From the IMG/VR virus record IMGVR_UViG_3300012919_000027, positions 1 through 29,302 of that record: 29,302 bases of DNA. The stretch is one strand, 5' to 3'. Source of the DNA: a virus. A program made the translations under genes and the position numbers. The notes below the pieces were generated by a model. That model was given only the letters and a program-made list of their open reading frames with translations, was not told the DNA's origin and did not search any database. This document shows, in pieces, positions 1,029-28,757 of the stretch (within the stretch, counting starts at the first letter, position 1; each line of letters begins with the position of its first letter).

Positions 1029-1219
1029 GCTTTTATCATAAGCTAAATCAAGAGGATCGTAGAATATTAAGGCATGTAGTAAAAACTGTACACATGAAAT
1101 ACTATCCAAAAGATTTTATAACTGATTATGAAGCTGATAAACTGATAGCAAGTATTCAATCAGAAACTTTAGAAAGTTTATTAGAAACTGGTAAGAATTA
1201 TAAAATAGATCAAAGATAG
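1025..1219 (+). CDS. Hypothetical protein preceding large terminase
   Basis: A 64-residue charged protein that starts at an ATGA overlap with the preceding micro-gene; its TAG stop overlaps the GTG start of the large terminase (TAGTG). It is predicted helical and lacks membrane segments. Position directly before the large subunit is where many phages encode the small terminase, but the protein is shorter than T7 gp18 (about 89 residues) and I see no DNA-binding motif, so the small-terminase role is only a positional guess. Confidence 0.6.
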   Translation: MSFYHKLNQEDRRILRHVVKTVHMKYYPKDFITDYEADKLIASIQSETLESLLETGKNYKIDQR

Positions 1220-2736
1220 TGCATACCTTTACTTACAAACCAGACGGTCAAACTATAAAAACATTTATGAAGGACTCTAATTTTTTTAGAGGTATAAGAG
1301 GTCCGGTTGGTTCTGGTAAGTCAGTTGCTTGTTGTGTTGAGGTATTTAGAAGAAGCTTGGAGCAACATAAGAACAAGGAAGGTAAGCGTAAAAGTCGTTG
1401 GGCTATTATTAGAAACACTAATCCACAGTTAAGAACGACTACTATAAAGACTTGGCTTGATTGGTTTCCAGAAGATGTATGGGGTAAGTTTCATTGGTCA
1501 GTACCTTATACTCATCATATACAACAAGATGAATTAGACATTGAGGTTCTTTTCTTAGCTTTGGATAGACCAGAAGATGTTAAGAAGCTTCTTTCTTTGG
1601 AACTTACTGGTATTTGGATTAACGAGGCAAGGGAAGTACCCAAGAGTATTATTGATGCGTGTACTATGCGTGTTGGTCGTTATCCTTCTATGCGTGAGGG
1701 TGGACCAAGTTGGTCTGGTGTCATTGCAGATACCAATGCTCCAGAAGAAGATCATTGGTGGGCAATCATGGCTGGAGAAGTTCCGATACCAGATTACATT
1801 CCTAAAGAGCAAGCTAAGATGTTAATCAAACCAGATAATTGGTCTTTCTTTGTTCAACCACCAGCTATGGAAGAAAAGCTTGATGAGAAAGGTGATGTTA
1901 ATACTTATGTACCAAATAAGAAAGCTGAGAATAATAGTAATATACTTGATACTTATTATCCCAATCTTATTCGTGGTAAGACTAAAAGCTGGATAGATGT
2001 TTATGTTATGAATCGTTTAGGTTCTATACAGGAAGGTAAACCAGTTTACCCTCAATTTGTTAGTGAAACTCATATTGCTCAAGAAGAAATACCGATTGCT
2101 ATCGGTGTACCTTTGTACATTGGTGTTGACTTTGGACTTACTCCAGCCGCAGTTTTTGGTCAGAAGGTTAGAGGTCGTTGGTTAATACAATCAGAGATTG
2201 TAGCGATTGATATGGGTATTGTTAGATTTGCAGAACTGTTAAGACAAGAGATAGCAACACGGTTTTCTGGTCTTGATGTAAATATTATTGGTGATCCAGC
2301 TGGTGACTTTAGAGCGCAAACAGATGAATCGACTCCATTTCAGATTTTAAGAGGTGCTGGTCTTAGGGCAATACCAGCTCCATCCAATAGTGTTGATCTT
2401 AGATTAGAGTCAGTTTCATCACAGTTAACAAAAATGTCAGATGGTCAACCAGCTTTTTTAATAGACAGAAGGTGTCCTTCTCTGATAAAAGGCTTTCAAG
2501 GTGGGTATTGTTATAGGAGGATGCAAGTGTCAGGAGAACGCTATGATGACAAACCAGAAAAGAATATGTACTCCCATATTCATGATGCTTTGCAGTATTT
2601 AATGTTAGGTGCTGGTGAAGGCAGACAATTAATTTCTGGACAACAACCCCTTTCTTCGTTTAATGCTAAGAGAGACTATGATGTATTTAAAAGAAAACCT
2701 ATGAAACAAAGATTTAATTTTTGGTCAAGAATGTAA
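1219..2736 (+). CDS. Terminase large subunit
   Basis: This 505-residue protein is the packaging motor that drives DNA into the procapsid through the portal and cuts the concatemer. The N-terminal ATPase domain shows a Walker A motif GPVGSGKS (residues 28-35) and a Walker B-like GIWINEA (131-137) with E136 as likely catalytic glutamate. The C-terminal RNase H-like nuclease domain shows YIGVDFG (300-306, D304), GDPAG (358-362, D359) and HDALQY (455-460, D456), the expected acidic triad. The start is GTG, overlapping the upstream TAG; the next in-frame ATG (residue 17) would leave too little sequence before the Walker A motif. The length is normal for the family. Confidence 0.95.
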   Translation: MHTFTYKPDGQTIKTFMKDSNFFRGIRGPVGSGKSVACCVEVFRRSLEQHKNKEGKRKSRWAIIRNTNPQLRTTTIKTWLDWFPEDVWGKFHWSVPYTHHIQQDELDIEVLFLALDRPEDVKKLLSLELTGIWINEAREVPKSIIDACTMRVGRYPSMREGGPSWSGVIADTNAPEEDHWWAIMAGEVPIPDYIPKEQAKMLIKPDNWSFFVQPPAMEEKLDEKGDVNTYVPNKKAENNSNILDTYYPNLIRGKTKSWIDVYVMNRLGSIQEGKPVYPQFVSETHIAQEEIPIAIGVPLYIGVDFGLTPAAVFGQKVRGRWLIQSEIVAIDMGIVRFAELLRQEIATRFSGLDVNIIGDPAGDFRAQTDESTPFQILRGAGLRAIPAPSNSVDLRLESVSSQLTKMSDGQPAFLIDRRCPSLIKGFQGGYCYRRMQVSGERYDDKPEKNMYSHIHDALQYLMLGAGEGRQLISGQQPLSSFNAKRDYDVFKRKPMKQRFNFWSRM

Positions 2737-3037: not shown

Positions 3038-4582
3038 ATGCACAAAGAAGCTAAAGACTTTTTACATAAATATGAAAAAGCTAAGACGCATAGAGAAAAC
3101 TTTATACCATTATTTGAAGAGTGTTATGAATACTCTATGCCTCAAAGAGAATCTTTTTATACTGAATCTGTTGGTCAGAGAAGAGATGAAAAGATATTTG
3201 ATGAAACAGCAGTAGTTGGTGTACAGGAATTTGCATCTAGGTTACAAGCTGGTTTAGTTCCTAACTTTGCTAGGTGGGCTGACTTTGTTGCTGGTTCTGA
3301 AGTACCCAAAGAACAAAGAGAAGAAGTTAATAATGATCTTGATGAAGTTACTGACTATGTGTTTGAGGTATTACAAAACTCTAACTTTGGTCAAGAGGTT
3401 CATGAATCTTTTATGGACTTAGCAGTAGGCACTGGTGTACTTCATGTTGCTGAAGGTGATGCAGTACACCCTGTTAATTTTTCTGCTATTCCATTACCTC
3501 ATGTTGTTTTAGATACTGGACCAGATGATAAGATAGATCATATTTTTAGAGAAAGAAAAGTAAGATATTCTGATTTACCAATACTATATCCTAATGGTTC
3601 GTTTAGTCCTAAGATTGCACAACTTATGCAAAATAGTCCAGAAGTAAAAACAAATGTTCTTGAGGTTATTTGTAAAGATTATTCTAAGATAAATGAAGAT
3701 GCTTTTTTATCTTATGTCATTGAGATGGGTGATAAAGATATAATATCTTTTGATAGCTTTAAAGGAGTAGGATCAAATCCATTTATTTGTTTTCGTTGGT
3801 CTAAATGTGCTGGTGAAGTATATGGTCGTGGTCCACTTATGAATGCATTAAGTGCAATTAAAACAACTAACCTTACTGTACAGTTAGTGTTGGAAAATGC
3901 ACAAATGGCTATCTCTGGTATTTATCAATTGGATGATGATGGTATTATCAATCCAGATACAATTAGTTTAGTACCTGGTACAGTTATACCTAAAGCACCA
4001 AACTCTGCTGGATTGCAACCGATTAGGGCTGCTGGTAACTTTGATGTTAGTCAGTTTATTTTAAACGATATGCGTTTAAATATTAAGAGAGCTTTGTATA
4101 ATGAGATGCTTGGTGATCCTAATAAAACTCCAGCTACTGCTACTGAGATTGCAGAACGTATGGCTGATTTATCCAGACAGATTGGTTCTGCATTTGGTAG
4201 GTTACAATCAGAATTGGTACAACCAGTTCTTCAAAGGGTTATATTTATTCTTAAGAAACAAGGTAGAATAGAAATTCCTACTGTAAATGGTAGACAAGTA
4301 AAGGTACGTTCTGTATCTCCATTAAGTCAAGGACAAGCAAAGCAAGATATAAACAATACTGCACAATGGATGCAGTTAGTTCAACAAAGTTTTGGTCCAG
4401 AGATTATGAATTTATTAGTTAGTGGTGAGGAAGTTGCTAGTCATTTAGCTAAGAAATTCAATGTACCAGATAGTTTAATTAGAGATGCAAGTGAAAGACA
4501 AGAGCTTGTACAGTTAATGCAACAGGCTCAACAGTTGCAACAAGCTCAACAACAACAGGGAGAGGAAGTTGTCCAACAATAA
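3038..4582 (+). CDS. Portal (head-to-tail connecting) protein
   Basis: The 514-residue product resembles the T7 gp8-type 'bacteriophage head to tail connecting protein' family: the N-terminal RENFIPLFEECYEYSMPQ segment, the central FRWSKCAGEVYGRGP (YGRGP at 262-266) followed by a long helix with LVLENAQMA, and the segment TPATATEIAERMADLSRQIG in the C-terminal half. Twelve copies should form the ring at one capsid vertex that docks the terminase and the tail. The C-terminus is unusually Gln-rich (LMQQAQQLQQAQQQQ). AGGA is about 7 bases before the ATG. The stop lies inside the next gene's first codons. Confidence 0.93.
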   Translation: MHKEAKDFLHKYEKAKTHRENFIPLFEECYEYSMPQRESFYTESVGQRRDEKIFDETAVVGVQEFASRLQAGLVPNFARWADFVAGSEVPKEQREEVNNDLDEVTDYVFEVLQNSNFGQEVHESFMDLAVGTGVLHVAEGDAVHPVNFSAIPLPHVVLDTGPDDKIDHIFRERKVRYSDLPILYPNGSFSPKIAQLMQNSPEVKTNVLEVICKDYSKINEDAFLSYVIEMGDKDIISFDSFKGVGSNPFICFRWSKCAGEVYGRGPLMNALSAIKTTNLTVQLVLENAQMAISGIYQLDDDGIINPDTISLVPGTVIPKAPNSAGLQPIRAAGNFDVSQFILNDMRLNIKRALYNEMLGDPNKTPATATEIAERMADLSRQIGSAFGRLQSELVQPVLQRVIFILKKQGRIEIPTVNGRQVKVRSVSPLSQGQAKQDINNTAQWMQLVQQSFGPEIMNLLVSGEEVASHLAKKFNVPDSLIRDASERQELVQLMQQAQQLQQAQQQQGEEVVQQ

Positions 4583-4832: not shown

Positions 4833-5607
4833 AGAAACACAAACAGTATCAGAAGCAATGGAACAACAGACCCCTGACATAAGTGACAGAAGTGACATAA
4901 AATCAGAGGAAAAGGATTTTGTAACTGCTGAAGATCAAGCACCAGCAAGACCAGAGTGGTTACCAGAAAAGTTTAAAACACCAGAAGCTTTGTTAGAATC
5001 GTATAGTAATCTTGAGAAGAAACAAGGTCAGAAAGAAAGTGATTTAAGAGAAGCTTGGGAAAAAGAATTAAATGAACAAGCTTATGCTGATAGACCAGAA
5101 AGTGCTGGTGATTATGTATTACCTAAAAGTATTGATGAATCTTTAGCTCCAGATAATAAAATGCTAGATTGGTGGTCTAAGTTTTCTTGGGAAAATGGTA
5201 TGAGCCAAGAAGAATTTGAAGCTGGTATTAATATGTTTGAACAAGAAAGAGAATCAATAATTGGTTCTATTGAGTCTAATAGGGAAGATGAAGTAAAGAA
5301 ACTTGGTGATAATGCAGAAGAAAGAATACAAGCTACTGCATTATTTGCACAAAAGTTTTTTCCAGAAAACCTTATGCCAGCTATAGAAAGACTTACAGAA
5401 ACATCTGAAGGTATACAAGCAATAGAACATATTATGGAAAGTATAAAGCAAGGTGGTAATATAGATACTGAACCAGCTAATCGTTTAGATTTACAGACTT
5501 TAGAGTCTATGATGAATGATGAACGATATTGGAATCCAGCTAAGAAAGATTTAAATTATATCCGTGAAGTAACAGAAGGTTATAATAAATTAAATGGAGT
5601 AGGATAA
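4825..5607 (+). CDS. Capsid assembly scaffolding protein
   Basis: A 260-residue acidic, helix-rich protein with an Asp/Glu-rich N-terminus and a PEWLPEKFKTPEALLESY segment from residue 43, a signature of T7 gp9-like scaffold proteins. The scaffold should guide capsid protein into procapsids and leave before or during packaging. A longer frame opens at ATG 4804, but AAGGAGAG at 4812-4819 sits properly only before ATG 4825, so that start is chosen. The place between portal and capsid is the expected one. Low sequence complexity and many Glu residues are normal for scaffolds. Confidence 0.87.
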   Translation: MSEETQTVSEAMEQQTPDISDRSDIKSEEKDFVTAEDQAPARPEWLPEKFKTPEALLESYSNLEKKQGQKESDLREAWEKELNEQAYADRPESAGDYVLPKSIDESLAPDNKMLDWWSKFSWENGMSQEEFEAGINMFEQERESIIGSIESNREDEVKKLGDNAEERIQATALFAQKFFPENLMPAIERLTETSEGIQAIEHIMESIKQGGNIDTEPANRLDLQTLESMMNDERYWNPAKKDLNYIREVTEGYNKLNGVG

Positions 5608-7314: not shown

Positions 7315-7908
7315 ATGGCATTAACTCCAAGTGAAGCAAATACAGCACTTGATATTTGTAGTAGAGCTTTAATTTTAATTGGAGCAGAACCAATTAGTTC
7401 TTTTGATGATGGTTCAACGGAAGCCTTAGTATGTGTTAATCTTTATGAAGATGTAGTTCGTACTGCATTAACAAATACTAGATGGAGATTTGCTACTAAT
7501 CAAAAACAAATAAATAGATTAACAGATATACCAACAGGTAGATTTAACTTTGCATATCAAATACCACAAGATAATCTTATGGTTCATGCTGTAACTGTAA
7601 ATGATAATTTAATTGAGTATCAAATTTATGGTGATTTAATTTATTCAAACACATCAGAAAATGATGTAGTTATTGCAGATTATTCTTTTAGGGCATCTGA
7701 ATTAGATTTTCCTAGTTATTTTACATTAGCAGTACAGTTTTCTTTATCTGTTATATTAGCAACTTCTATAGCAAGAGATGCAAGTTTAGCACAATTAATG
7801 ACTGTTAGAGCAGATGGTGCAATGGCTAAAGCTAGAAGTTTAGATTCACAACAACAAACTACAAGAAGGCTTGAAACAAATAGGTTTATAACTGCAAGGC
7901 AAAGTTAA
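7315..7908 (+). CDS. Tail tubular protein A (T7 gp11-like)
   Basis: A 197-residue protein with the gp11-type N-terminus: ALDICSRALILIGAEPISSF, ALVCVNLYEDVVRTAL and NTRWRFATNQKQ, all within the first 70 residues, followed by a YQIPQD segment (about 82-87). In T7 twelve copies form the adaptor ring between portal and nozzle. The ATG lies 6 bases after a terminator T-run and has no normal Shine-Dalgarno; the only purine-rich run is buried in the terminator stem. The TAA overlaps the next ATG by one base. Confidence 0.9.
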   Translation: MALTPSEANTALDICSRALILIGAEPISSFDDGSTEALVCVNLYEDVVRTALTNTRWRFATNQKQINRLTDIPTGRFNFAYQIPQDNLMVHAVTVNDNLIEYQIYGDLIYSNTSENDVVIADYSFRASELDFPSYFTLAVQFSLSVILATSIARDASLAQLMTVRADGAMAKARSLDSQQQTTRRLETNRFITARQS

Positions 7909-10367
7909 TGCAGACATTTAGAATACCATTTACTAATTTTCAATTTGGTGAAATTAGTCCATCTATGATAGGTAGAACAGATGCAGAGGTATATAACAAA
8001 TCTGCACAAAAGCTAACTAACTTTTTTATTCGTAATGAAGGTGGTGTTATTAAAAGACCAGGTTTCAAAAAGAAATTAAATCTTGGTGCATCTGCTGGTA
8101 CTACGGATATTGGTTTAAGAATTATTCCTTTTATATTTAGTGATGATGAAAGATACATCATTGGTTTTACTGCTAATAGTATTAAGATAATAATACTTGA
8201 TTTTGATTCTAACGGTTCTCCCTCCAGTGGTGCAGTAACTTTGTTACAAACTATTACAACAGATATAGATGGTAACAACCTCCCATTTACTGCATCACTT
8301 ATTAAAGAAATAAACTTTGCACAAACTGGTGACGTAATGTTTTTATGTCATAATACTATGCAAACTTTAAAGCTGGTAAGAACTTCATTAATTACTTTTG
8401 AAGTATCTAATTTTACTTTTGATAAAAGAGCAGACAACAAACAAACGTATCAACCTTACTTTAGCTTCCAGCCACAGAATTTTACTATGACTCCTAGTGG
8501 TACATCTGGTTCTATAACTTTGACAGTTAAACCAACTGGTACAGTTAATAATTGGGCTAGTGGTCAATCTTATACAATTGGTACTTTGGTAAAAGATACC
8601 AATGCTAATTTAATATACAGAGTTAATACTGCACATACATCAAGTGGTGCTGAACCTTTATCTACAAATGCTAATGCAACAAAGTATTCTGCACAAAATT
8701 ACTTTGATACAACAGGTAATATATCTGGTAGTAATTATCCAGACTCTAAACATATTGGGATTACTATGAAGTTTAGAGGTCAAGAGATATTAATTACTTC
8801 TGTACAATCTGGTTCTCAAGCTACTGGTACTGTACAAGAAGAATTATTTACTAAGCTTGATATAAATGCTTTAAGAACAGTTAAAGGTTCTCCTAATATA
8901 GAAGTTACTATGCCTTTACATAATTTAAATGCTGGTGATAGTTTTACTATTTCAGAAACTACAGACGTTGGTGGTATAACCAACACTAATTTAAATGGAA
9001 CATATAGTGTTGAGACAATAGTTGATGATAATAAATTTACTTATAATTGTGGATCAAGTGCTAATAACTCTGAAGATGGTGGTGGTGCGCCTAAGATAGT
9101 TTCAGCTTCAGAAAGCTCTGACTTTGAAGAACAGTCTTTCTCTGAGTATCGTGGTTTTCCAAGAGCTATTTGTTTTCATGAAGGTAGGCTTTGGTTTGGT
9201 GGAACAACATCACAACCAGACGGTTTGTTTGGTAGTAAGACAAATCAGTTCTTTGACTTTAATGTTGGTAGTGCATTAGATAATGAGTCAATACAACTTA
9301 ACAGTAGTATTGGTCAGTTAGATAGTATTAAACATTTAATATCAAATAGAGATTTACAAGTCTTTACTGAAAGCTCTGAGTTTATTGTACCAGCTTATCA
9401 GAACACACCTATTACTCCATTGAATGCTATGATTCGTAGACAAACTCCTTATGGAGTTAGTCATGTAAAGCCTGTTGTGTTTGATGGTGCAACTATTTAT
9501 GTACAACGATCTGGTACTGTTATGAGAGAGTTTATCTTTTCAGATAAAGAGAATGCTTATATTTCTAATAGTGTATCTACACTATCATCTCATTTGATAA
9601 CAAATCCAAATGATATGACATCATTGCAAGCAGCAATTAACAGACCGGAATCTTATATATTCATTGTTAATACTGATGGTAAGATGGCAGTATTTAATTC
9701 TAATCGTGCTGAACAGAAAGCTGGATATACAGAGTTTACTTTTAATAGCACTGGTAGTTTTAAGTCGGTATGTACTGTTGATGAAAGAGTATTTTGTATT
9801 GTAGATAACAATGCTGGTGGTGGTACTAAATATTTTTATCTGGTTGAATTAGATAACACAACTAATTTAGATATGTCAGTTAGTGCATCTGGAAGTAATG
9901 GTGTATTTACAGTAGGAAATGGTTCTGGAGAAACCTTTGATAATGGTGCTGTACTAGATGTTATTGATGGTAATAACTATCTTGGTCAGCATACAGTAAG
10001 TGGTAATCAAATTAATGTTGCTAGCATTGATAGTTCATTATCAAGTGTTGAAATAGGATATGGTATTACACCAGAGTTAAAAACAAATCCATTGGATATT
10101 AATACATCAGAGGGTCCAACAACAGGTATGCTTAGAGGTTTAGGTCGTGTTGTTGTTGACATTCGTGATACTTTATCTATGACAATAAACTCTAAGAATT
10201 TAGAAATTAGGAATGTAACAGATGATCCTTCTCTTCCTAGAAGCTCAATATCTGGTAAAAGAGAAATAAGATTATTAGGTTATAGTCGTGATCCACAAAT
10301 AACAATTAGTCAACAACATCCATTATCTATGCAAGTTAATAGCATAGTAGCAGAGGTACAAATATAA
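7908..10367 (+). CDS. Tail tubular protein B / nozzle (T7 gp12-like)
   Basis: The 819-residue product starts with FRIPFTNFQFGEISPSMIGRTD, then KLTNFFIRNEGGVIKRPGFK (residues 36-55), the signature of gp12-type nozzle and stabilisation proteins. RGFPRAICFHEGRLWFGGT and a following SVSTLSSHLI segment are also typical. It should form the hexameric nozzle that carries fibres and seals the tail. The length is close to T7 gp12 (794). It overlaps its neighbours by one base on each side (TAATG). Confidence 0.9.
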   Translation: MQTFRIPFTNFQFGEISPSMIGRTDAEVYNKSAQKLTNFFIRNEGGVIKRPGFKKKLNLGASAGTTDIGLRIIPFIFSDDERYIIGFTANSIKIIILDFDSNGSPSSGAVTLLQTITTDIDGNNLPFTASLIKEINFAQTGDVMFLCHNTMQTLKLVRTSLITFEVSNFTFDKRADNKQTYQPYFSFQPQNFTMTPSGTSGSITLTVKPTGTVNNWASGQSYTIGTLVKDTNANLIYRVNTAHTSSGAEPLSTNANATKYSAQNYFDTTGNISGSNYPDSKHIGITMKFRGQEILITSVQSGSQATGTVQEELFTKLDINALRTVKGSPNIEVTMPLHNLNAGDSFTISETTDVGGITNTNLNGTYSVETIVDDNKFTYNCGSSANNSEDGGGAPKIVSASESSDFEEQSFSEYRGFPRAICFHEGRLWFGGTTSQPDGLFGSKTNQFFDFNVGSALDNESIQLNSSIGQLDSIKHLISNRDLQVFTESSEFIVPAYQNTPITPLNAMIRRQTPYGVSHVKPVVFDGATIYVQRSGTVMREFIFSDKENAYISNSVSTLSSHLITNPNDMTSLQAAINRPESYIFIVNTDGKMAVFNSNRAEQKAGYTEFTFNSTGSFKSVCTVDERVFCIVDNNAGGGTKYFYLVELDNTTNLDMSVSASGSNGVFTVGNGSGETFDNGAVLDVIDGNNYLGQHTVSGNQINVASIDSSLSSVEIGYGITPELKTNPLDINTSEGPTTGMLRGLGRVVVDIRDTLSMTINSKNLEIRNVTDDPSLPRSSISGKREIRLLGYSRDPQITISQQHPLSMQVNSIVAEVQI

Positions 10368-10819
10368 TGAATCCATTTACAGGTTTAGCAGTTTTATCTG
10401 GAGTACTTAGTATTATGACTGGTATTCAAGCTGGCAATGAAGCAATGAGAAAAGCAAGACAATCAGCTTATGATATTAAGTTAGAAAGAGAGAATGCAAA
10501 GATACAAGCTATGGCTCAACACAATGAAAGATATGCTGAGTATGAAACAATCATGGCACAATCAGAAGCTTGGTTAGGTTTTGCTAGCAGAGGTTATGAT
10601 CCATCAACTATGGCTGGTTTTAAGAGATCAAAGAAAGAATTACAAAAAGATATTGGTAGTATTAACTACACATCTTTAATGAGAGATTATAGATTAAGAG
10701 CAAAGCAACAAGAGGTTCTTTCATCTGGTGAGTATGCACGAACTGCTGCAATAACAACTGGATTTAACAATGCTATTCAGATGGCATATCGGCATCAAAC
10801 AACAAAGTTTGGAGTATAG
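10367..10819 (+). CDS. Internal virion protein (T7 gp14-like)
   Basis: A 150-residue protein with a hydrophobic N-terminus (GLAVLSGVLSIMTGIQAG, residues 5-22), then a helical, Ala/Gln/Glu-rich body with SEAWLGFASRGYDP (about 66-79). Size, N-terminal membrane-like segment and position between the nozzle and two giant proteins match T7 gp14, which is ejected into the outer membrane and forms part of the DNA channel. Direct sequence similarity to T7 gp14 is weak by eye, so the call rests mainly on architecture and order. Confidence 0.7.
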   Translation: MNPFTGLAVLSGVLSIMTGIQAGNEAMRKARQSAYDIKLERENAKIQAMAQHNERYAEYETIMAQSEAWLGFASRGYDPSTMAGFKRSKKELQKDIGSINYTSLMRDYRLRAKQQEVLSSGEYARTAAITTGFNNAIQMAYRHQTTKFGV

Positions 10820-13800
10820 ATGGCTATAGGTGTATATAAAAGTAAAGTATCAATACCAGAGATAGGTATTAATGTAGCAAGTTCTAATACAAAAACAAAC
10901 TCTCTGCAAAGTATTTCTAATTCTTACGCACAAACATCTAATTTATTTTTTCAAGCTGCTGGTGATGAAGCTAAGAAGGTAGCTACTGAGTTTGGTATGT
11001 CTGTTCCTATTGAAAAGGTAATGGGTATTAATGGTGATACTGGTATGCCAGAGGCTTACAGTTTACCAGAAAATTATGGAACAATAGCTATGGATGCTTT
11101 TAAGCGAGTTATTGACCAGAGATTCTTTGAAGCTATTGAGAATGATTATAGAGCTAAAGCTAAAGAATTATATACTAAATATTCTTTAGATGTAGCTGGT
11201 TTTGAAAATGCTTTCTTAGGATATACTGCTGAAGTAGTAGATGTTGCTCAAGGAAAGTTTAAAGAGTTTGCAAGAGAATTAGGTATTAACCAGACTAAAG
11301 GTTATGTAGCTAATATACGTTCTAATATTTATCAAGAAAGTTTAAGAAAAGCACAAGAGTTAAACCAAAAACAAAATGTTGATTTTATAGATATAATGCT
11401 TAATGGATCATTTAATTTTCAAAATCAACTTAATCAATTTGGTGTTCCTCGTGGTAGTGATTTTGGTGACTATCCAGATAGTTTTATACAAGATTCAATT
11501 AATGGATTTAGGGCAAGCAAACAAGCTTTAATAGATTCTGGTACAACAACAGAGGGAGAAGTTTTTGAAACAATAAGAGATGGTGTAAATATATTTTTAC
11601 AAGGTAGATTAAATACTATTTTAAATGATGAATTTTTTAAGAATAGTAGAGTTAATTCAGATATATTTATTAACTCAGTTAAATTAAGACGCACTCATAA
11701 AAATTTACCAAAAGAAGCAAATGAATTTATAAGAAGTTTTCTAAGTATTAATCCTAGTCAACAAATGGTTAATGACATGGTTACTATTTATAAAGGTGAC
11801 CAGACATTATTTGAATCACATAGACAAAGTTTAGCTGAGAATGCCACTACTAGACAAGATTCCATTAATAAAGTTCAACAAAGAAAACAAGAATTTAAAC
11901 AAGCTAATGATGTAAATAATTTTAAATACTTAATACAAAGAATAAAAGATCAAGAATTAAATAATGAAATTCGTAGTTATGGTGATATAAAAAATACTTT
12001 TTATGCAGGTAGAATAGAACATGACACTAATCAATTAAATAATAAATTAGACCCAAACAGAGGTTATCAAGGCGATAATGGAATATCAACATTGCTAGAT
12101 GATGCTGAAGGAGAAATTTTAAATCAAGGTTTTACAAATATTATTAAAAAAGTTGCTAATGCAATATCTACAGATACAAGTTCAGATACAATAAAAGATA
12201 TAGAAGCTTTTATAATGAGTGCTTATAGTGGTTCTGTTAAGCCAAATGAAGTTGATGAAAATTTGCTTGGTATACCAGCTGCAACTGAATTAAAAAATCT
12301 TTTAACACATTATCCTATTCCAGAAAATGTTGTAAAAGGATTTAAAAAAGAAAATGAATTTCAAAATCTAGATAGAATATTACAAAAAAGAATAGCACAA
12401 GAAAAGATAGATGCTCAATTACAAAAAGAAGATAGAGAAATTTTCCAAGCAAATCAATTAAGTATAAATAGAGATGTATTTTATGATAGATTTGATAATC
12501 AAAGTTTTAATATTCTTGATGAATTAAAAACAACAGGTAATTTTAATGAGGAATCCTACAATAAGTTATTGAACGATTTAAATTCACAAACAATGGTTAG
12601 AGGTGAGTTTGGTGGTAAATCTATATTAAGTGATGAGAAAAAAAATGAGTTAGAGAAAAAATTTAAAAGTGATGTTGCTTCTCAGTTAATTGCAAATGAA
12701 TTAATTAATTTTATAATAGAATCTGAAGGTACAGCAAAAGGTTTAGGCAAAGAAGATGTAAAACAAATAAGAGATTATTTTGATAGTGGATCAAAAGATA
12801 TACCTATACCAGAACCACTAAGAGTAAAGTTATCTCAATTAGAAAGAGAGTTTAACTTTAATGTAGTTGATAAAAAAAGAATGTTTCAATCTATATTAGA
12901 TAATTATAATGAGTATTATGATAAGAAAGAAGCTTTTAAAAATGAAATAAGATTTTACAATAGTCTTACAACAGGTGATAGAACAAATGTAGATGGTAAC
13001 CTTGTTGATAATGCAATAAGAAAAAGACATCAAATAGGTGATTTACCTTTTGATCCTTTCGATCATTATACATCACAGGATAGAAAGTTTGATCTACCAT
13101 TATTAGAAATGATAGCTAATGATAATGTTGGTAATGAACTATTTAAGGTTGTTAAAACATTTGCTAGTGATCCATCTAACTCTGCTTTTGAAAATAGAAA
13201 TATGAATTTTTTTATTAATTTTTTAAGAACTTTAAAACAGTTTCCAAGTGGTAATGGCAATCAAACAATAGATATTGTACCTACTAAGTTTACAAACGAT
13301 CCAGAAATAGCAAGATTATTTACTATTCTTGATATGACAGCAAGAGATGTAAACATTGATATATCATCTATTAAATCTAATATTGATTTAGTAAATAGTA
13401 ATATTGGTTTGTATAAAACTTGGTTAGATGAAAATAAAGATGATTTTAGAAATGATTCATTAGAAGATGAGATAAATAAACAACTAGGAACAAAAGGGTT
13501 AAGTCGTTTTAATAGTGCTAATTTTTTTAAGATGATAGATAATGAGTTGCCTGTTGCTGTTGCTTTAGGAACTGTAAGAGATAAAGCTTCTTTAGGTGTC
13601 TTTTTAAACAAAAGATATGGAGAAAGATACATTCAAAGTTCTGAGGTTCTTGAAAACTTTAATGATCCATCTGGAACAAATCGTACTAATAAAGCTTTAG
13701 AGATAACTATTCCTAATAAAGAAGTAAGAGATGCTACAAAAGATAGTATGATTTTAGAAGTTGCTATGCCTTTTTGGAAAGATCATCTTACAAGAATTGG

Positions 13801-14887
13801 TTCATCAATGGTTGAAGATGGTTTTGCATTAAAGTTTGGAGATAAGTTATATCCTAGTAAAAAAGATTATAAACCAGATAATATAATAAGTATTATTATA
13901 TCACCTAAACATAAGACAGATAATGACCCTATTGATGTTATCAGTACACTAGCTGATGGTTTTGAATATGCAGATAGGGGTATGTCTTTACCTAGAGAAG
14001 AATTATATGGTATGTTTTACAAAGGAAAAGGTATGTCAAGTCATATGCCTATGGGTGGGTTAATGAAAAAAAATCAACTTGATCCACTAACAGAACATCA
14101 TTATCAAACTATAGCAGATGGTAATTTTGTACAAAGAAACAATTTAACAAGTACAGTTTATGCTTCTACACTAGGTTTTGAAGTTAATGGTATTGAAGCA
14201 CATTTCTTACTACCTACTGTTTGGGATGGTAGGATAATGCCAATTAATACAGAAGAAGAAATTTCAGCTTTAGTTCAAAGAATAGAATCTACTGGTAAAT
14301 CTGTTTTTGATTATCCTTCTTTTAGCACACCATTAGAAGCTCAACAATATTATGAAGATGTAAAATTAAAATGGGCTAATATTGGTACAGATTCAGATGC
14401 TGCTTCATATCTTTTAGAAGTAAATAGTTTTGATTCAACTGATATTTTAACTGTAAATCCTTTTGATATTGCAGCTAAGTTTAATCGTTTAAAAAATATT
14501 GAACTTAATAATAAGTTAATAAAAGATGAAATGCGTGAGATGAATAAGTTAATATCAGATTATCGTCATACAAAGCTTTATAATATGCCATATAAGTTTA
14601 GACCACCAAATGAATTGTCTTTAGAAAAATCAAGAGAGTTAGTAAAAGAAATACAAATAGAAACTATTGATAAAAGAAATATAAAAAAAATGAATATAGT
14701 AGCACAGTTAAAATCAAATGTGCAACCAGTTAAAGATAACTTACAAGATTTTTTTATAAATTTATATTCAAGTCATTATGTAGATTTAGATGGATTGCCA
14801 GGTATAAATCAAATGGGTGTTCCTGAAAGTGGTGAACTATCTAATGAAACCATTGAGGCTATGCGATTAATAATGAGTAATCAATAA
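10820..14887 (+). CDS. Giant internal virion/ejection protein
   Basis: A 1355-residue, mostly helical, charged protein in the position of T7 gp15, but much longer (gp15 is about 747). The N-terminal part has the look of podovirus internal core proteins (SLQSISNSYAQTSNLFFQAA, about 28-47). Near the C-terminus (about residues 1115-1185) a small domain contains LGFEVNGIEAHFLLPTVWDG followed by FSTPLEAQQYYEDV, a segment that recurs in phage internal and transglycosylase-associated proteins. I see no lytic transglycosylase motif. It starts directly after the previous stop and overlaps the next ATG by one base, implying matched expression of the ejection proteins. Confidence 0.72.
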   Translation: MAIGVYKSKVSIPEIGINVASSNTKTNSLQSISNSYAQTSNLFFQAAGDEAKKVATEFGMSVPIEKVMGINGDTGMPEAYSLPENYGTIAMDAFKRVIDQRFFEAIENDYRAKAKELYTKYSLDVAGFENAFLGYTAEVVDVAQGKFKEFARELGINQTKGYVANIRSNIYQESLRKAQELNQKQNVDFIDIMLNGSFNFQNQLNQFGVPRGSDFGDYPDSFIQDSINGFRASKQALIDSGTTTEGEVFETIRDGVNIFLQGRLNTILNDEFFKNSRVNSDIFINSVKLRRTHKNLPKEANEFIRSFLSINPSQQMVNDMVTIYKGDQTLFESHRQSLAENATTRQDSINKVQQRKQEFKQANDVNNFKYLIQRIKDQELNNEIRSYGDIKNTFYAGRIEHDTNQLNNKLDPNRGYQGDNGISTLLDDAEGEILNQGFTNIIKKVANAISTDTSSDTIKDIEAFIMSAYSGSVKPNEVDENLLGIPAATELKNLLTHYPIPENVVKGFKKENEFQNLDRILQKRIAQEKIDAQLQKEDREIFQANQLSINRDVFYDRFDNQSFNILDELKTTGNFNEESYNKLLNDLNSQTMVRGEFGGKSILSDEKKNELEKKFKSDVASQLIANELINFIIESEGTAKGLGKEDVKQIRDYFDSGSKDIPIPEPLRVKLSQLEREFNFNVVDKKRMFQSILDNYNEYYDKKEAFKNEIRFYNSLTTGDRTNVDGNLVDNAIRKRHQIGDLPFDPFDHYTSQDRKFDLPLLEMIANDNVGNELFKVVKTFASDPSNSAFENRNMNFFINFLRTLKQFPSGNGNQTIDIVPTKFTNDPEIARLFTILDMTARDVNIDISSIKSNIDLVNSNIGLYKTWLDENKDDFRNDSLEDEINKQLGTKGLSRFNSANFFKMIDNELPVAVALGTVRDKASLGVFLNKRYGERYIQSSEVLENFNDPSGTNRTNKALEITIPNKEVRDATKDSMILEVAMPFWKDHLTRIGSSMVEDGFALKFGDKLYPSKKDYKPDNIISIIISPKHKTDNDPIDVISTLADGFEYADRGMSLPREELYGMFYKGKGMSSHMPMGGLMKKNQLDPLTEHHYQTIADGNFVQRNNLTSTVYASTLGFEVNGIEAHFLLPTVWDGRIMPINTEEEISALVQRIESTGKSVFDYPSFSTPLEAQQYYEDVKLKWANIGTDSDAASYLLEVNSFDSTDILTVNPFDIAAKFNRLKNIELNNKLIKDEMREMNKLISDYRHTKLYNMPYKFRPPNELSLEKSRELVKEIQIETIDKRNIKKMNIVAQLKSNVQPVKDNLQDFFINLYSSHYVDLDGLPGINQMGVPESGELSNETIEAMRLIMSNQ

Positions 14888-17800
14888 TGGATTTAGAAGA
14901 TATAAAAAAAGGTATTGTTCCAGATAACATAGGTTTAGCAAACGATAATAGACAAACTTATTCTACTGCTGTTCCTAGAAAAAGTAGTTTTTCAGAAGCA
15001 TGGTCAGCCATGATGGGTATAAGTTATGGTTCAATGTTATTTGAAGTAGATAATTATTTAAAACATAATGCAAGTTTGTTTGATGATTTAGATAACGGTA
15101 ACTTTAATGCATTAACATCAACTGATCCATTTATTGTAGAACAATTAGAAAGTTTAAATAATAGAGATATAAAAAATGATTTGATATTTGCTAGAAATAA
15201 AGAACATTTTTTAGGAATGATTGAGCAAAAATATCGTAGACTTGAGCAACATAAAACATTAGAAAATACAAGTTGGTCTACTTATATACCAGCATTAATA
15301 GCTGATCCTATAAATGGTGCTACAATTTTCTTTCCTATATTGCGTAGCAAATCTGTATGGGATGCTATGCGTAAATCAGCATTAATGACTACAGCTATTG
15401 TTGGACCACTTGAAACTGGTAGAGTATATGCTGATCCTACAGTTTCACCAATGGAAGGTTTGGCTACAACAACTGCATCTGTTCTTTTTAGTAGTGCTTT
15501 AACTGGTGTTGGTAGAGGTATATCAGATTACTTTACCAACAGAGCAAGAAAAGAAATATATAATCAAGTTACATCTGAAATGATAGCTACTGGTACGTTT
15601 AAACCAGATGGTATTTATAGAGATAGTAATGGAATGTTGCATGGTAACTTTACAGAGAATGTAAAGATAGCAAGATCAAGTGGTAAATCTATTTTTGATA
15701 CATCAGAAGAAGAACTTACTAAGATATTTAAAAACTTTTCTTATAATAAAATTATTACTAATCAAGCAAAAGTAAATGAATATCTAAGAAAAGAGAATAA
15801 AAATTTAACAGGAATACTTGGTGTTAATGGAAAAGACGGAAATATATATTTAAACTTTGAAGCTATAAAACGTAGTTACAAAGATTTTAAAAGTAAAACA
15901 AAAAGCAAAGCTGCAATACAACAATATAAAACACAATTAAAACAAGTTTATGATAATAAAGAAATTTCTGAAGCAACTTATAGACATCATTTAAATAAAA
16001 TAAAACATATAGATTTATTTAATAATGTTGATGAATATGCTAAGTTTATTTTATTACACGAATTACATCATACTACAAATCCAAGATTAAAATATGAGCG
16101 TTTAGGTTTGTATGAAGATCGTATTGATAATCTTGCACTTAACTTTCTTAGAGATGAAAGAAGTATAAGTGAGTATTCTGTTTTTAGAGATGGTGTTAAA
16201 ACCAAAATTAATCCAGATGATATTCCAGTATTAGATAATCCAAATAGTTTTGATACTAGTGGTTCTGGTGCTTTCTTAAACTCATGGGCTTACAAAGCTA
16301 TACCTACTCCTTATAAAAATTTTATTATGAACAAAGCTATTAATGATGATGTAAAAGAATTAATGCACAAATTAGGAAGTGACATGGGTATGAAGATGCA
16401 AAAGAATGCTCTTGGTATTCCTTCTGATTTTAGTGTTCATATAAAATCTAATACAGATCATGGCAAATGGGTAAGAGTATATGATGATATAATGAAAATA
16501 TACTCTGAAGATACTAATAAGAAAGTAACTGGTGTATTAGATTATAGAATATGGGGTGCTAAAACCTTTGATGATTGGATGAAGAACGTAAACAGACGTA
16601 TGGTTTTTAATGATTTAGATGGTGTTACTGCTGGTGAAAAGAAAGCTATTAAAATGTTTCAAAACTTTTGGAAAGAATGGGAACAAAGATTAATTGATGT
16701 TAATATGATTGGTACTCATCGTGGTTTGATTAATGAGATAGCTAGATTGGAAATAAGATTAAAAGAACTTGAAGCAACGCCAGCAATAAAAGGTGATTTA
16801 GATTACAATAAATTACAAATAGAAAGATACAAAGGTAAATTAGATGAGCTAAGATCAGATTTAAGTGCTAAAGTTGATACTTCTGTGCCTCAAAATGAAA
16901 TGAGTTTTTATGCTAGGTATTGGAATCATGATATGATTCTAGCTAATAAAGAAAAATTTACACAAATATTAGAAAAATGGTATGCACAAAATCCATATAT
17001 ATATGAGAAAGGTGTACAAAAATTATTATCAACAAATCCAGCAAGTGTAAGAAAAAGAGCAGATGAAACAGTATCAAAGATACTAGGTGAAACAGATGGT
17101 AACTTTGAACAATCTTTTGCTGGTTATAGTTCTAAACATACAAGACATAGAAACTTAAACATACCTAATAAACTTGTTTGGGAATTTATAGAACAAAATC
17201 CTATTAGTGTTATGAAGAACTATACAACAAGAGTTTCTCCAGAATATCATTTTAAAAATGATTTTAATGGTAGGTCATTAGAAGATGTGCAAGAGTTTAT
17301 TTACAATAGTGTATCTAAATCTAGTAATGTTAAATCAGCACAAAAAGCAGTTATGCAATTTACACATATGTATGATCGTGTTGTTGGTAATGTTGTTAAA
17401 GACCCAACTAAATTAAATCAAAGAGTCAGACAAGTGCTTAGTGACTTAGCTGGTTTAACTTATTTAGGTTCTGCTGGTTTTGCAACACTTACTGACTATG
17501 CAGCAATAGCTTTGCAAAGGGAAGCTGGTGCTTGGTTAAAGTTATCTTTTTCAATTATGGATGGTCAGAAAATATCTTTAAATGCCAAAGAAGGTAGATA
17601 TGCTGGTGAAGCTTTGGACATATTAAAAAATATGGAAGGTTTGAGATTGATAGATGATCTATCAAATAGAACAATAGATCGTGGATTATATAGTAAAGTT
17701 GCTGGTAAAGCCAAACAATTATTTTATTCTACAAACTTATTGGGTCCAGCTACAAACCTTGCAAAAAGATTAGAGTCTATCTTTAGAGCGCATCAAATTA

Positions 17801-18705
17801 TAGAAGATGCAATTAGTATTCAAAACAAAACAGCATCTAAACAAACTGTAGAAATGATGGCTAAGATGGGGTTTGGTATAAAAGAAATAGAAGAGATAGC
17901 TAAAAAAGCACCTTATGAAAGAAATACACCAAAAGGTTTATACTTAGCTAACTCTGATGGATGGTTAAAAGCTGGTGTTTCACGTGAAACATTAGATAAA
18001 TTTAGAAATTCAATGAACGCTGGTATTTTTAATACTGTTATTATGGCATCACCAGCAGATAAACCTATTATGATGGATGGTGTTTTTTATGTGCCTTGGC
18101 GTGTTGCTAAATATATTCCGGGAATGACAGAAAGCAAATCAGTTCGTGGTTATTCAAGAATAGAGAATGGTTTATTTTCATTGCCTTTTGCTTTTATGTC
18201 TTACTCGTTTGGTGCGGCAAATAAAATTACAGCAAGCTTGGCACAGAATACATTAAAGAATAAAGCTATGGGTTTTACTATGGCTATGGGTTTAGCTTAT
18301 ATGGGTTTACAATTACGATACAGAAACAGACCCTATGTATTAGAAAATATGTCTACTGAAGATAAGATAGCAAGAACATTTGATTATTCTGGTTTAGCTG
18401 CAATATACTCTGATATGTTTTACAGAGGATTATCTATTGGTACTAACTTAGGTTACTTTGAAAACTCACCAGTTAATCCAAAGTTTATATCTAAAGATAA
18501 AGCAGAAAGACCAATGGATGCTGCACTAGAAGTTATAGGCGCACCAGCTTCATTGCTTTGGGAATATAAAAGAGGTGTTGTTGATTTTTATAATGGTGAA
18601 GTTAATGAGGGTGTAAAGAGATTCCAAAGAAATTTACCGTTTGCTAAGATATGGTGGATGGAGAATTTAAGTAAAGACATAGGAAAGGTAGTAGGCAGAT
18701 GGTAA
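14887..18705 (+). CDS. Giant internal virion protein with HELHH metallopeptidase-like motif
   Basis: A 1272-residue protein in the position and size range of T7 gp16 (1318), which forms the periplasmic DNA-ejection tube. Residues 391-395 are HELHH, preceded by the hydrophobic AKFILL and followed by YEDRIDNLALNFL (409-421), where E410 could be the third zinc ligand of a gluzincin-like domain. An earlier GNIYLNFEAIKRSYKDF segment probably starts this domain. C-terminal hydrophobic stretches (about 1098-1115 and 1135-1150) could insert in the membrane. No lytic transglycosylase motif is visible, so the peptidoglycan-cutting domain of T7 gp16 seems absent or replaced. Proteolytic activity is inference from the motif. 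Confidence 0.75.
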   Translation: MDLEDIKKGIVPDNIGLANDNRQTYSTAVPRKSSFSEAWSAMMGISYGSMLFEVDNYLKHNASLFDDLDNGNFNALTSTDPFIVEQLESLNNRDIKNDLIFARNKEHFLGMIEQKYRRLEQHKTLENTSWSTYIPALIADPINGATIFFPILRSKSVWDAMRKSALMTTAIVGPLETGRVYADPTVSPMEGLATTTASVLFSSALTGVGRGISDYFTNRARKEIYNQVTSEMIATGTFKPDGIYRDSNGMLHGNFTENVKIARSSGKSIFDTSEEELTKIFKNFSYNKIITNQAKVNEYLRKENKNLTGILGVNGKDGNIYLNFEAIKRSYKDFKSKTKSKAAIQQYKTQLKQVYDNKEISEATYRHHLNKIKHIDLFNNVDEYAKFILLHELHHTTNPRLKYERLGLYEDRIDNLALNFLRDERSISEYSVFRDGVKTKINPDDIPVLDNPNSFDTSGSGAFLNSWAYKAIPTPYKNFIMNKAINDDVKELMHKLGSDMGMKMQKNALGIPSDFSVHIKSNTDHGKWVRVYDDIMKIYSEDTNKKVTGVLDYRIWGAKTFDDWMKNVNRRMVFNDLDGVTAGEKKAIKMFQNFWKEWEQRLIDVNMIGTHRGLINEIARLEIRLKELEATPAIKGDLDYNKLQIERYKGKLDELRSDLSAKVDTSVPQNEMSFYARYWNHDMILANKEKFTQILEKWYAQNPYIYEKGVQKLLSTNPASVRKRADETVSKILGETDGNFEQSFAGYSSKHTRHRNLNIPNKLVWEFIEQNPISVMKNYTTRVSPEYHFKNDFNGRSLEDVQEFIYNSVSKSSNVKSAQKAVMQFTHMYDRVVGNVVKDPTKLNQRVRQVLSDLAGLTYLGSAGFATLTDYAAIALQREAGAWLKLSFSIMDGQKISLNAKEGRYAGEALDILKNMEGLRLIDDLSNRTIDRGLYSKVAGKAKQLFYSTNLLGPATNLAKRLESIFRAHQIIEDAISIQNKTASKQTVEMMAKMGFGIKEIEEIAKKAPYERNTPKGLYLANSDGWLKAGVSRETLDKFRNSMNAGIFNTVIMASPADKPIMMDGVFYVPWRVAKYIPGMTESKSVRGYSRIENGLFSLPFAFMSYSFGAANKITASLAQNTLKNKAMGFTMAMGLAYMGLQLRYRNRPYVLENMSTEDKIARTFDYSGLAAIYSDMFYRGLSIGTNLGYFENSPVNPKFISKDKAERPMDAALEVIGAPASLLWEYKRGVVDFYNGEVNEGVKRFQRNLPFAKIWWMENLSKDIGKVVGRW

Positions 18706-26895: not shown

Positions 26896-27303
26896 TTAAA
26901 ATGGAATCTCATCATCAATAACTTTAGCTGGTTCTTCTTTAGTAGAAAGAAGGTCAGTAGGTTTTTTGTTTTCTGACACTTGTAAACTAAGATAGTTCTT
27001 ATTACCACTATGTTGTTTCTTCCATGCAGCTAATCTTAATTTGGTGCCAGCATTTATTTCAAATCTTTCATGACAATTACCAGTATAATCTGGTGATGCA
27101 CTTAATGCATTATCATTCTCAAACAATGCACATAACTCTGTGTAACATTTAATGATTACCCTTCCAGCTTTAGTCATACTTCTAATCATTACTATCTTAT
27201 GTTCACTGCCTTCAATGTCAAGCTTTCCCTCTAATATAAAATCATTATTGGGAAAAGGTTGAAACACTGCTCCACTATTTTTATTGTCGTATTCTTCTGC
27301 CAT
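26896..27303 (-). CDS. Putative single-stranded DNA-binding protein
   Basis: A 135-residue protein with a YDNKNSGAVFQ start (5-15), a middle segment SPDYTGNCHERFEINAGTKL with later YLSLQVSENKKP, and a C-terminal tail ending DDEIPF. The acidic tail ending in I-P-F is the hallmark of bacterial SSB (E. coli DDDIPF), used to recruit partners. The 'YDN.N.GA.F' N-terminus occurs in marine phage proteins annotated as ssDNA-binding. Neighbouring annealing protein and exonuclease support the role. AAAGGAG lies before the ATG. Confidence 0.75.
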   Translation of the reverse strand: MAEEYDNKNSGAVFQPFPNNDFILEGKLDIEGSEHKIVMIRSMTKAGRVIIKCYTELCALFENDNALSASPDYTGNCHERFEINAGTKLRLAAWKKQHSGNKNYLSLQVSENKKPTDLLSTKEEPAKVIDDEIPF

Positions 27304-27316
27304 TTATCACTCCTTT

Positions 27317-27733
27317 TTAAAATGGTTTGTTTGGTTTCTTGCCAGTTGATACCCAATCACCATCATCTTCTGTAGAATCATCTGGCATTAGGTTTAGTAA
27401 TGCTTGTAGTGTATATCTTCTCATGTAAGTTATAGCACCACCAGTTCCTTGTGGACCTTTGTTATTGTTATCTAGTCTTACAGTAGAAAATATTTCAGAT
27501 TGACTTTTAGTATGGTGTAAACAACAGACTAAAGAATCTGAGGGAATAGCTGCACTTGAATTAAAAGACATTGTAAAACTTACTAATAAATCATTATCTT
27601 CCAATGACTTACCTACTGCATCCATAATATCTTTTAGTGTATGGAACTTACCAAACTGTGCATTGCCACTTTGCTTTAGTGGTTTAAATGTTTTTCTAGC
27701 TTTAGCTAGTGCTTTGTATACATCATCTTCCAT
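27317..27733 (-). CDS. ERF-family single-strand annealing protein
   Basis: A 138-residue recombinase with the ERF pattern: ALAKARKTFKPLKQSGN, FGKFHTLKDIMDAVGKSLED (27-46), LVCCLHHTKSQSEIFS (68-83) and PQGTGGAITYMRRYTLQALL (94-113), then an acidic DDSTEDDGD. ERF proteins anneal complementary single strands and work with a 5'-3' exonuclease. A frame opens at TTG 27739, but GGAGG, inside the last codons of the upstream gene, is properly spaced only for ATG 27733. The upstream TGA lies 2 bases before the ATG, so the genes are coupled. It is shorter than P22 Erf (204), mainly at the C-terminus. Confidence 0.88.
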   Translation of the reverse strand: MEDDVYKALAKARKTFKPLKQSGNAQFGKFHTLKDIMDAVGKSLEDNDLLVSFTMSFNSSAAIPSDSLVCCLHHTKSQSEIFSTVRLDNNNKGPQGTGGAITYMRRYTLQALLNLMPDDSTEDDGDWVSTGKKPNKPF

Positions 27734-27735
27734 TA

Positions 27736-27951
27736 TCAATCCTCCATACCTAATGCTTTTTTAGGATTTTTTCTAAACGATTCATTGTTATCTTGATATA
27801 GTTTCTTAAGATCAGACTCCCAATCTGATAAAGCATCTGCTTTAGTAACCCATCCCCATTGGTTCCATCTTTTTTTATTCCAGATAATATAGCCTTCTCC
27901 ACATATATCATCCCATTTTAATGTAGCGATTGAATATCTATATTTGCTCAT
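27736..27951 (-). CDS. Trp-rich 71-residue protein in recombination operon
   Basis: A 71-residue protein with TAGGAGAGAG before the ATG. It has six Trp (13, 24, 29, 32, 34, 44), a beta-like first half (YRYSIATLKWDD, GEGYIIWNKKRW) and a charged helical second half. It lies between the exonuclease and the annealing protein with 9-base and 2-base gaps, so the three should be made together. The family is unknown to me. An accessory to the recombinase or a host-nuclease inhibitor is possible, but only by context. Confidence 0.6.
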   Translation of the reverse strand: MSKYRYSIATLKWDDICGEGYIIWNKKRWNQWGWVTKADALSDWESDLKKLYQDNNESFRKNPKKALGMED

Positions 27952-27960
27952 TTCTCTCTC

Positions 27961-28734
27961 CTAATGAATAACAATTCTAATTGAACCACGCTTATCTCTA
28001 CGTAATGAAAGCTTGTCTGAATACAATTCTCTTTCATTCGGAGCAATAAGACTCTTTAATTCTTTCTTTGTTTCTTCGTGTTGTGAATGCTGACTTGAAG
28101 TTTCAAAGTAATTATCAACAAGACTAATAAAATAATTGTTTTGGTTTCCATTTCTTTTGACCATCTCGTTGATTAATACTTTATCAGTATCAATTTCAAC
28201 TTGGTCTTGAGTAGGGGGGGAAGTATCAGATGTAACATACTGCCAGAACTGAAACAATCTATCTTTCATAGTCTCAAGATAGTCACCGTTCTTAGCAACA
28301 TGGACACATTCCCATCTACGATTACCAAACTTATTAGCAAAGTAACAACTGCTTATGTTACTGATAAACATATAGAATTGTAACTGTGGCATATACCTAG
28401 TTAGCTGGTCCTCCATCTTATTATATTCATAAGTTTCTTTTGCTTCGACAATCGCCGCCCTGCTTTGGGTGGCGGCGTCGATTGTCCCTTTTAACGGAAC
28501 ACCATTCCAATTCATTTCAAATGTTTTTTGATAGTCAGTTAGTTGTTGTTTGTATTGGATAGTAAACCAATGCAGTATAAACTCTTCATTGTGTATACCG
28601 GATTGCACTGTAAAGTTATTTGATAAATCTTCTGGTTGTTCTTTACCAGTTTTGATTGACCATAGTTTAACCCAATCACCATTCATAATTTGAACAGCGT
28701 CTGAGCCACCAATAAATCCTATTCTATTGTTCAT
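27961..28734 (-). CDS. YqaJ/lambda-exonuclease-like recombination nuclease
   Basis: A 257-residue nuclease of the PD-(D/E)XK type. The N-terminus shows FIGGSDAVQIM (7-17) and LWSIKTGKEQPEDLS (24-38), with E50/E51 following, then TIDAA (D86) and IVEAKE (E97, K99), the catalytic D...ExK signature. LTRYMPQLQFYMFI (112-125) is the usual Q-rich helix of YqaJ proteins. It should digest 5' ends to make 3' single strands for the ERF protein. An in-frame ATG at 28752 is nearly at the predicted transcription start, while AGAGAGG fits ATG 28734, which is chosen. The D86-K99 coding stretch contains a GC-rich inverted repeat. Confidence 0.88.
   Translation of the reverse strand: MNNRIGFIGGSDAVQIMNGDWVKLWSIKTGKEQPEDLSNNFTVQSGIHNEEFILHWFTIQYKQQLTDYQKTFEMNWNGVPLKGTIDAATQSRAAIVEAKETYEYNKMEDQLTRYMPQLQFYMFISNISSCYFANKFGNRRWECVHVAKNGDYLETMKDRLFQFWQYVTSDTSPPTQDQVEIDTDKVLINEMVKRNGNQNNYFISLVDNYFETSSQHSQHEETKKELKSLIAPNERELYSDKLSLRRDKRGSIRIVIH
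28447..28490 (+). terminator. GC-rich intragenic hairpin, terminator-like on plus strand
   Basis: The arms GACAATCGCCGCC (28447-28459) and 28471-28486 pair over 13 bp with a 3-base bulge, around an 11-base loop. On the plus strand the stem is followed by CCTTTT. It lies within the active-site codons of the leftward exonuclease gene and is far more G+C-rich than the surrounding sequence. Terminator function on the plus strand is inference. Confidence 0.5.
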
Positions 28735-28757
28735 GGAACACCTCTCTTTCATATGTT

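Follow-up and report, generated by a model that had tools for sequence, protein, structure and literature searches.

Does a protein that very likely enters the host cell together with the phage DNA carry a zinc peptidase, and if so, is this peptidase part of the ejection machinery or a passenger on it? The question is raised by the string HELHH in a large ORF of the window, the whole stretch of DNA that was analysed (virus record IMGVR_UViG_3300012919_000027, 29,302 bases). An initial annotation placed this ORF at the gp16 position and saw the pattern of a gluzincin in it, with three possible roles for a protease: processing of phage proteins, cutting of host proteins at the entry site, or maturation of the ejection channel.

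The gp16-type protein and its genomic setting

The genes follow one another in the order terminase, portal, capsid, tail tubes, ORFs at the gp14, gp15 and gp16 positions, tail fibres, holin and endolysin. The features that set the frame are:

1219..2736, + strand, terminase large subunit (PHROG 2, E 4.7e-18)
3038..4582, + strand, portal / head-tail adaptor (PHROG 332, E 3.5e-93)
7908..10367, + strand, tail protein of gp12 type (PHROG 376, E 1e-104)
10367..10819, + strand, small ORF of 150 residues at the gp14 position (weak assignment, by position)
10820..14887, + strand, internal virion protein of 1355 residues at the gp15 position, with no lytic transglycosylase domain detected
14887..18705, + strand, internal virion / ejection protein of gp16 type (P0001), 1,272 residues

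P0001 has homologues in many viral contigs. The gp16-type profile PHROG 342 matches its residues 23-996 with an E-value of 1.4e-23, starting at profile position 213, and thus omits the N-terminal part in which T7 has its transglycosylase. A wrong gene call for 14887-18705 is ruled out by this profile match and by the gene order, which together assign P0001 to the T7 gp16-type ejection proteins. In T7, the N-terminal part of gp16 is periplasmic and its C-terminal part is membrane-bound or cytoplasmic; the transglycosylase domain is phage-specific and can shift to gp15 (review PMC8954989). Neither Pfam searches of the proteins at the gp15 and gp16 positions nor T7 and phage transglycosylase queries against the related marine loci turned up a lytic transglycosylase. 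The carrier phages are uncultured and probably marine.

Three further observations concern this setting. Residues ~1080-1200 of the gp15-position protein resemble a separate module, the stretch GLMKKNQ...NGIEAHFLLPTVWDGRIMP...TGKSVFDYPSF being kept in the three relatives L001, L002 and L003. Within the gp16 gene, comparison with L001 gives a dS of 0.012 over residues 427-950 and of 0.71 over residues 950-1139; this jump marks a recombination breakpoint around residue 950 (about position 17734). At the end of the fragment, genes for SSB-like, Erf-like annealing and RecE-like exonuclease proteins (26896-28752, minus strand) run opposite to the structural genes and make up a recombination module.

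Signature and predicted fold of the zincin domain

The features within the gp16 gene that bear on the question are:

15706..16164, + strand, zincin domain at site A, residues 274-426 (supported by AlphaFold2 pLDDT, clean absence in relative L036 and homology to the site-B domain of relative L096)
16057..16071, + strand, HELHH, residues 391-395 (predicted zinc ligands H391 and H395, predicted general base E392; covered by the domain HMM)
16114..16128, + strand, E410-x3-D414 (predicted third zinc ligand E410 at 16114-16116, D414 at 16126-16128)
17965..17976, + strand, site B, residues 1027-1030 (empty in the window phage, occupied by a zincin domain in many relatives)

HELHH and the YEDRIDNLAL that follows it were confirmed at the annotated place, and both are invariant within the window clade (L001, 97% identity; L002 and L003, 72%), where dN/dS points to constraint, being 0.10 against L001, a value based on 7 changes only, and 0.34 against L002. 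An HExxH string alone proves nothing, since T7 gp16 (L253) holds HERLH at residue 559, which warns against motif-only calls. A protein of P0001 composition would by chance hold ~0.018 HExxH, and the extended pattern HExxH-x(8-30)-E-x3-[DN] arises in 0.24% of shuffles. We accepted the motif as real because it is conserved in homologous copies that lie at another place in gp16 homologues.

We compared 66 distinct copies, picked for HExxH so that H391, E392 and H395 are present in 66/66 by selection. Among positions not selected for, F387 and E410 are found in 66/66, and at position 414 there are 62 copies with N and 4 with D, the window having D; Y409, I413 and A417 are each conserved in 65/66. 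The signature common to all copies is HExxH...E-x3-[DN], of the thermolysin-like gluzincin type; in thermolysin the third-ligand Glu and the D/N are likewise spaced at +0 and +4. The invariance of E410 and of D/N at 414, the predicted helix-helix arrangement and weak zincin-type fold matches support the proposed gluzincin pattern, in which E410 would be the third ligand. The motif is conserved in the active copies of relatives, and the predicted helix arrangement is compatible with a metal site; T7 gp16 showed no sign of a zincin domain, as had been stated. Overall, the gluzincin signature and the homology of the copies are well supported.

The fold was predicted with AlphaFold2 from window residues 146-605 and nine sequences, model residues 121-280 corresponding to window residues 266-425. 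The domain, of about 150 residues, is the best-folded part of the model, with pLDDT mostly of 57-87 per 10-residue block; the mean over the whole model is 51, and little outside the domain is confident. HExxH is predicted on one helix (model 236-252) and E410 on the next (model 261-283). When the Foldseek matches were compared again with VIA, the best one, which is modest, was the YbeY-type protein AQ_1354 (1oz9; Z 6.3, 110 residues, model 123-281). It was followed by equally modest matches to TM1509 (Z 4.9), which we take to be YbeY-type, and, across the domain, to the minigluzincin selecase (4qhf; Z 3.8). Foldseek returned nothing significant in PDB or BFVD, the best PDB match having an E-value of 0.49, and sequence searches of the PDB with the domain gave nothing significant. 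The only Pfam zincin family to match was DUF4344 (PF14247, a putative metallopeptidase), on the HExxH and Glu helices, with E 7e-4 and 19.9 bits (17.4 bits in the genome search); with a cut-off of 29.6 bits, the domain falls outside this family by Pfam's rule. We read the domain as zinc-protease-type and gluzincin-like, predicted to bind zinc and to cleave.

Two sites, degenerate copies and movement between scaffolds

Searches with the whole protein, or with the domain of the window clade, recovered the same three contigs only. The wider family was reached through a scan with the tail protein and a scan with the gp16 C-terminus, which yielded gp16 homologues of graded similarity. In the tail-protein scan, which is blind to the domain, 10 distinct proteins were found to carry HExxH...YE..I[ND].LA at residues about 880-1040. 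This place, site B, lies ~600 residues downstream of site A and directly upstream of a conserved stretch, FR.A...GI.NT...GTPADKPI. A domain scan then gave 166 encoding stretches, of which 80 were kept. When every ORF of every locus was searched with a profile, each domain match with an identifiable scaffold fell in a gp16-type protein. About 60 distinct copies, among them almost all of the 66 compared above, occupy site B; none of them is degenerate and all keep H, E, H and E410. Five rows with the label 'other' and the truncated ORFs L225 and L200 belong to site B too. In four loci (L237, ORF at 3481; L078, ORF at 14659; L227; L235), ~48-234 extra residues separate the HExxH helix from the Glu helix. 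They may be further nested domains; Pfam found nothing in the extra stretch of L078.

Occupancy of both sites could be read from the alignment. The span at site A measures 280 residues in the window but only 121 in L036, which cleanly lacks the domain although the scaffolds are 65-66% identical, and 96 in L039 and L118. The span at site B measures 50 residues in the window, 172 in L091 and L106, 181 in L141 and 243 in L096. Within this alignment no protein carries the domain at both sites. The nearest scaffold relatives of the window (L036, L039, L043 and L037) all lack the domain, as checked by alignment or, for L043, by length and HMM only. In long gp16 proteins lacking the domain, a replacement effector was sought with Pfam and no match was obtained.

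At site A, active copies are confined to the window clade and L075, a small sample of two window-clade lineages plus L075, while about a dozen copies are degenerate. The Hodr-type clade has F..KKE[VI][YL][RK] in this region and YENR[IL]N further on; the two histidines are gone and the Glu of the second helix is mostly kept. A second degenerate group (L049, L053, L058 and L067) has lost the ligand Glu as well. The active-domain HMM still detects degenerate copies, with E-values down to 1.4e-6, and AlphaFold2 predicts for them strands and helices in a similar order, pLDDT reaching 85. The best structure matches of the model of the degenerate L018 copy (m816a29536f95) were chains of the baculovirus nucleocapsid cap, with weak Z-scores of about 3-3.4. 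In L075 (ORF at 4869, residues 287-479), site A of a single gp16 holds an active and a degenerate copy in tandem. Since most N-terminal copies elsewhere have lost the histidines of the motif, the domain can be retained for a non-catalytic role.

The copy closest to that of the window is the site-B domain of L096 (34% identity over 155 residues, E 8e-24), which shares an insert before the HExxH helix. In the domain tree, the window, L002 and L096 form one clade with support 100/100; a single clade of all site-A copies is rejected (p-AU 0.0016), as is one that unites the degenerate copies and the window clade (p-AU 0.0002). The scaffold tree places the window with the domain-less L036, L039, L043 and L037 (support 98), and a pairing of the window with L096 is rejected (p-AU 8e-69); the label 'none' in this tree takes in the Hodr-type loci L012, L018, L161, L145 and L152, which hold a weak degenerate copy under the HMM cut-off, a point that leaves the neighbours of the window untouched. 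Because the domain tree joins the window to L096 while the scaffold tree rejects this pairing, the domain has moved between scaffolds and sites. On these trees, the domain of the window is not simply inherited at site A along with the degenerate copies. As the scaffold neighbours of the window are empty, a move from a site-B donor into site A is the more economical direction. With two slots, and with relatives in which it is absent or dead, the domain looks like a swappable cargo and not like a fixed part of the injection machine.

Possible roles and comparison with known systems

The explanation that we favour, and to which we give an even chance, is that residues 274-426 constitute a gluzincin-type zinc metallopeptidase cargo of an ejected gp16-type protein, which acts in trans on a protein of the host or of a superinfecting phage. 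The domain would ride into the cell as the gp16-type protein enters with the DNA, bind zinc through H391, H395 and E410, with E392 as the base and D414 beside the site, and cut its target during the first minutes of infection. We judged a trans-acting effector likelier than a built-in step of ejection because the domain occupies two unrelated scaffold positions and is dispensable in close relatives. For the same reasons channel maturation, one of the roles initially envisaged, is less likely; the cutting of host proteins and the processing of phage proteins are, like it, roles that we infer. Somewhat more tentatively, gp16-type ejection proteins of podoviruses may possess defined cargo slots between which, and between phage lineages, a phage-specific gluzincin family hops to cut a host protein in an arms race, its dead copies having become structural. 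If true, this would be an injected-protease arms-race system so far unrecognised in T7-type phages.

The main rival is that the domain cuts gp16 itself or the adjoining gp15-type protein, freeing functional pieces before packaging or after ejection. Such self-processing has been proposed for zincins of injected phage proteins, with the cleavage of P1 DdrB as a precedent, but N4 vRNAP carries a domain of this kind and is packaged without being cut (PMC5512222). Close relatives moreover do without the domain, and as it precedes the conserved C-terminal core in some proteins and lies within it in others, a cut at one relative site would give very different products; we hold self-processing to be unlikely. 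A structural or binding module, in which the zincin fold would serve as an adaptor to the host envelope, to DNA or to other ejection proteins and its catalytic residues would be incidental or vestigial, seems if anything less likely still. The degenerate site-A copies without histidines, which persist in several lineages with a similar predicted order of strands and helices, are what this account would explain, yet the 60-odd site-B copies and the window clade all keep H, E, H and E410, and the conserved positions gather around the predicted active site.

A non-proteolytic metal-dependent hydrolase, such as a YbeY-like RNase or a cell-wall amide hydrolase on a zincin-like fold, appears improbable. 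AQ_1354 is the top fold match, and a wall-opening activity may be wanted where no lytic transglycosylase is detected at the gp15 and gp16 positions; however, the E-x3-[DN] helix of the third ligand fits gluzincin peptidases and differs from the ligand set of YbeY, which is made of three histidines. The idea that HELHH is a chance string in an ordinary helical part of gp16 deserves hardly any credence: the HERLH of T7 gp16 shows that such strings can arise, but homologous copies with the same signature elsewhere in gp16 refute it, the pattern having a p of about 0.002 for a single protein.

Little is settled about the role of ejected phage proteins during the first minutes of infection. An enzyme-like domain that is mobile, absent from close relatives and dead in others suggests that gp16 delivers effectors besides DNA. 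The trans-acting cargo reading is concretely testable, as the domain is small, has two mutable residues and lends itself to a cleavage assay, and the dead copies offer a way to study how an enzyme is converted into a structural part.

Zincin domains are already known in injected phage proteins, namely N4 vRNAP, P1 DdrB and many polyvalent proteins (Iyer et al. 2017, PMC5512222), and a 2025 structure paper on N4 vRNAP points out its HExxH motif (PMC12633501). The text of Iyer et al. makes no mention of gp16 or T7-like phages, and the ejection-protein review PMC8954989 mentions neither proteases nor zinc. Our literature search found no earlier description of a zincin in an internal virion protein, of this family or of movement between two slots. 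Among 50,697 phage records, no active form was found at the sensitivity used, and to date this form may have been seen in uncultured phages alone. A match to a 'Ro-like' protein of a Streptomyces phage (E 0.7) was judged to be chance, and 69 pattern hits in bacterial genomes included no relatives at close range.

The domain shares with gluzincins and minigluzincins (thermolysin signature; selecase 4qhf) the HExxH helix, the Glu on the next helix and E-x3-D/N, but PDB searches detect no sequence similarity to them and its activity is predicted. DUF4344 is the best-matching family over both helices, although below the Pfam cut-off. The gp16-type protein of Pelagibacter phage EXVC031P Hodr (WDQ27578.1) has a homologous scaffold with a homologous domain at site A; it differs in reading KKEVYR in place of HELHH, both histidines being lost while the YE/FE motif is kept. 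T7 gp16 and PHROG 342 resemble P0001 in gene-order position, in size and in a profile match across most of the protein, whereas P0001 lacks a match to the N-terminal lytic transglycosylase and has the zincin domain. A close parallel in design is offered by the metallopeptidase domains of polyvalent proteins, which likewise combine HExxH with a Glu on the next helix, at variable positions, in large proteins that enter, or are expected to enter, the host with the DNA. Here, in contrast, the weak match to DUF4344 is the only one by sequence between the domain and a named zincin family, its carrier is a gp16-type ejection protein whose delivery is deduced from homology to gp16, and a single scaffold family has two defined slots for it, either of which may be used, together with empty slots and dead copies.
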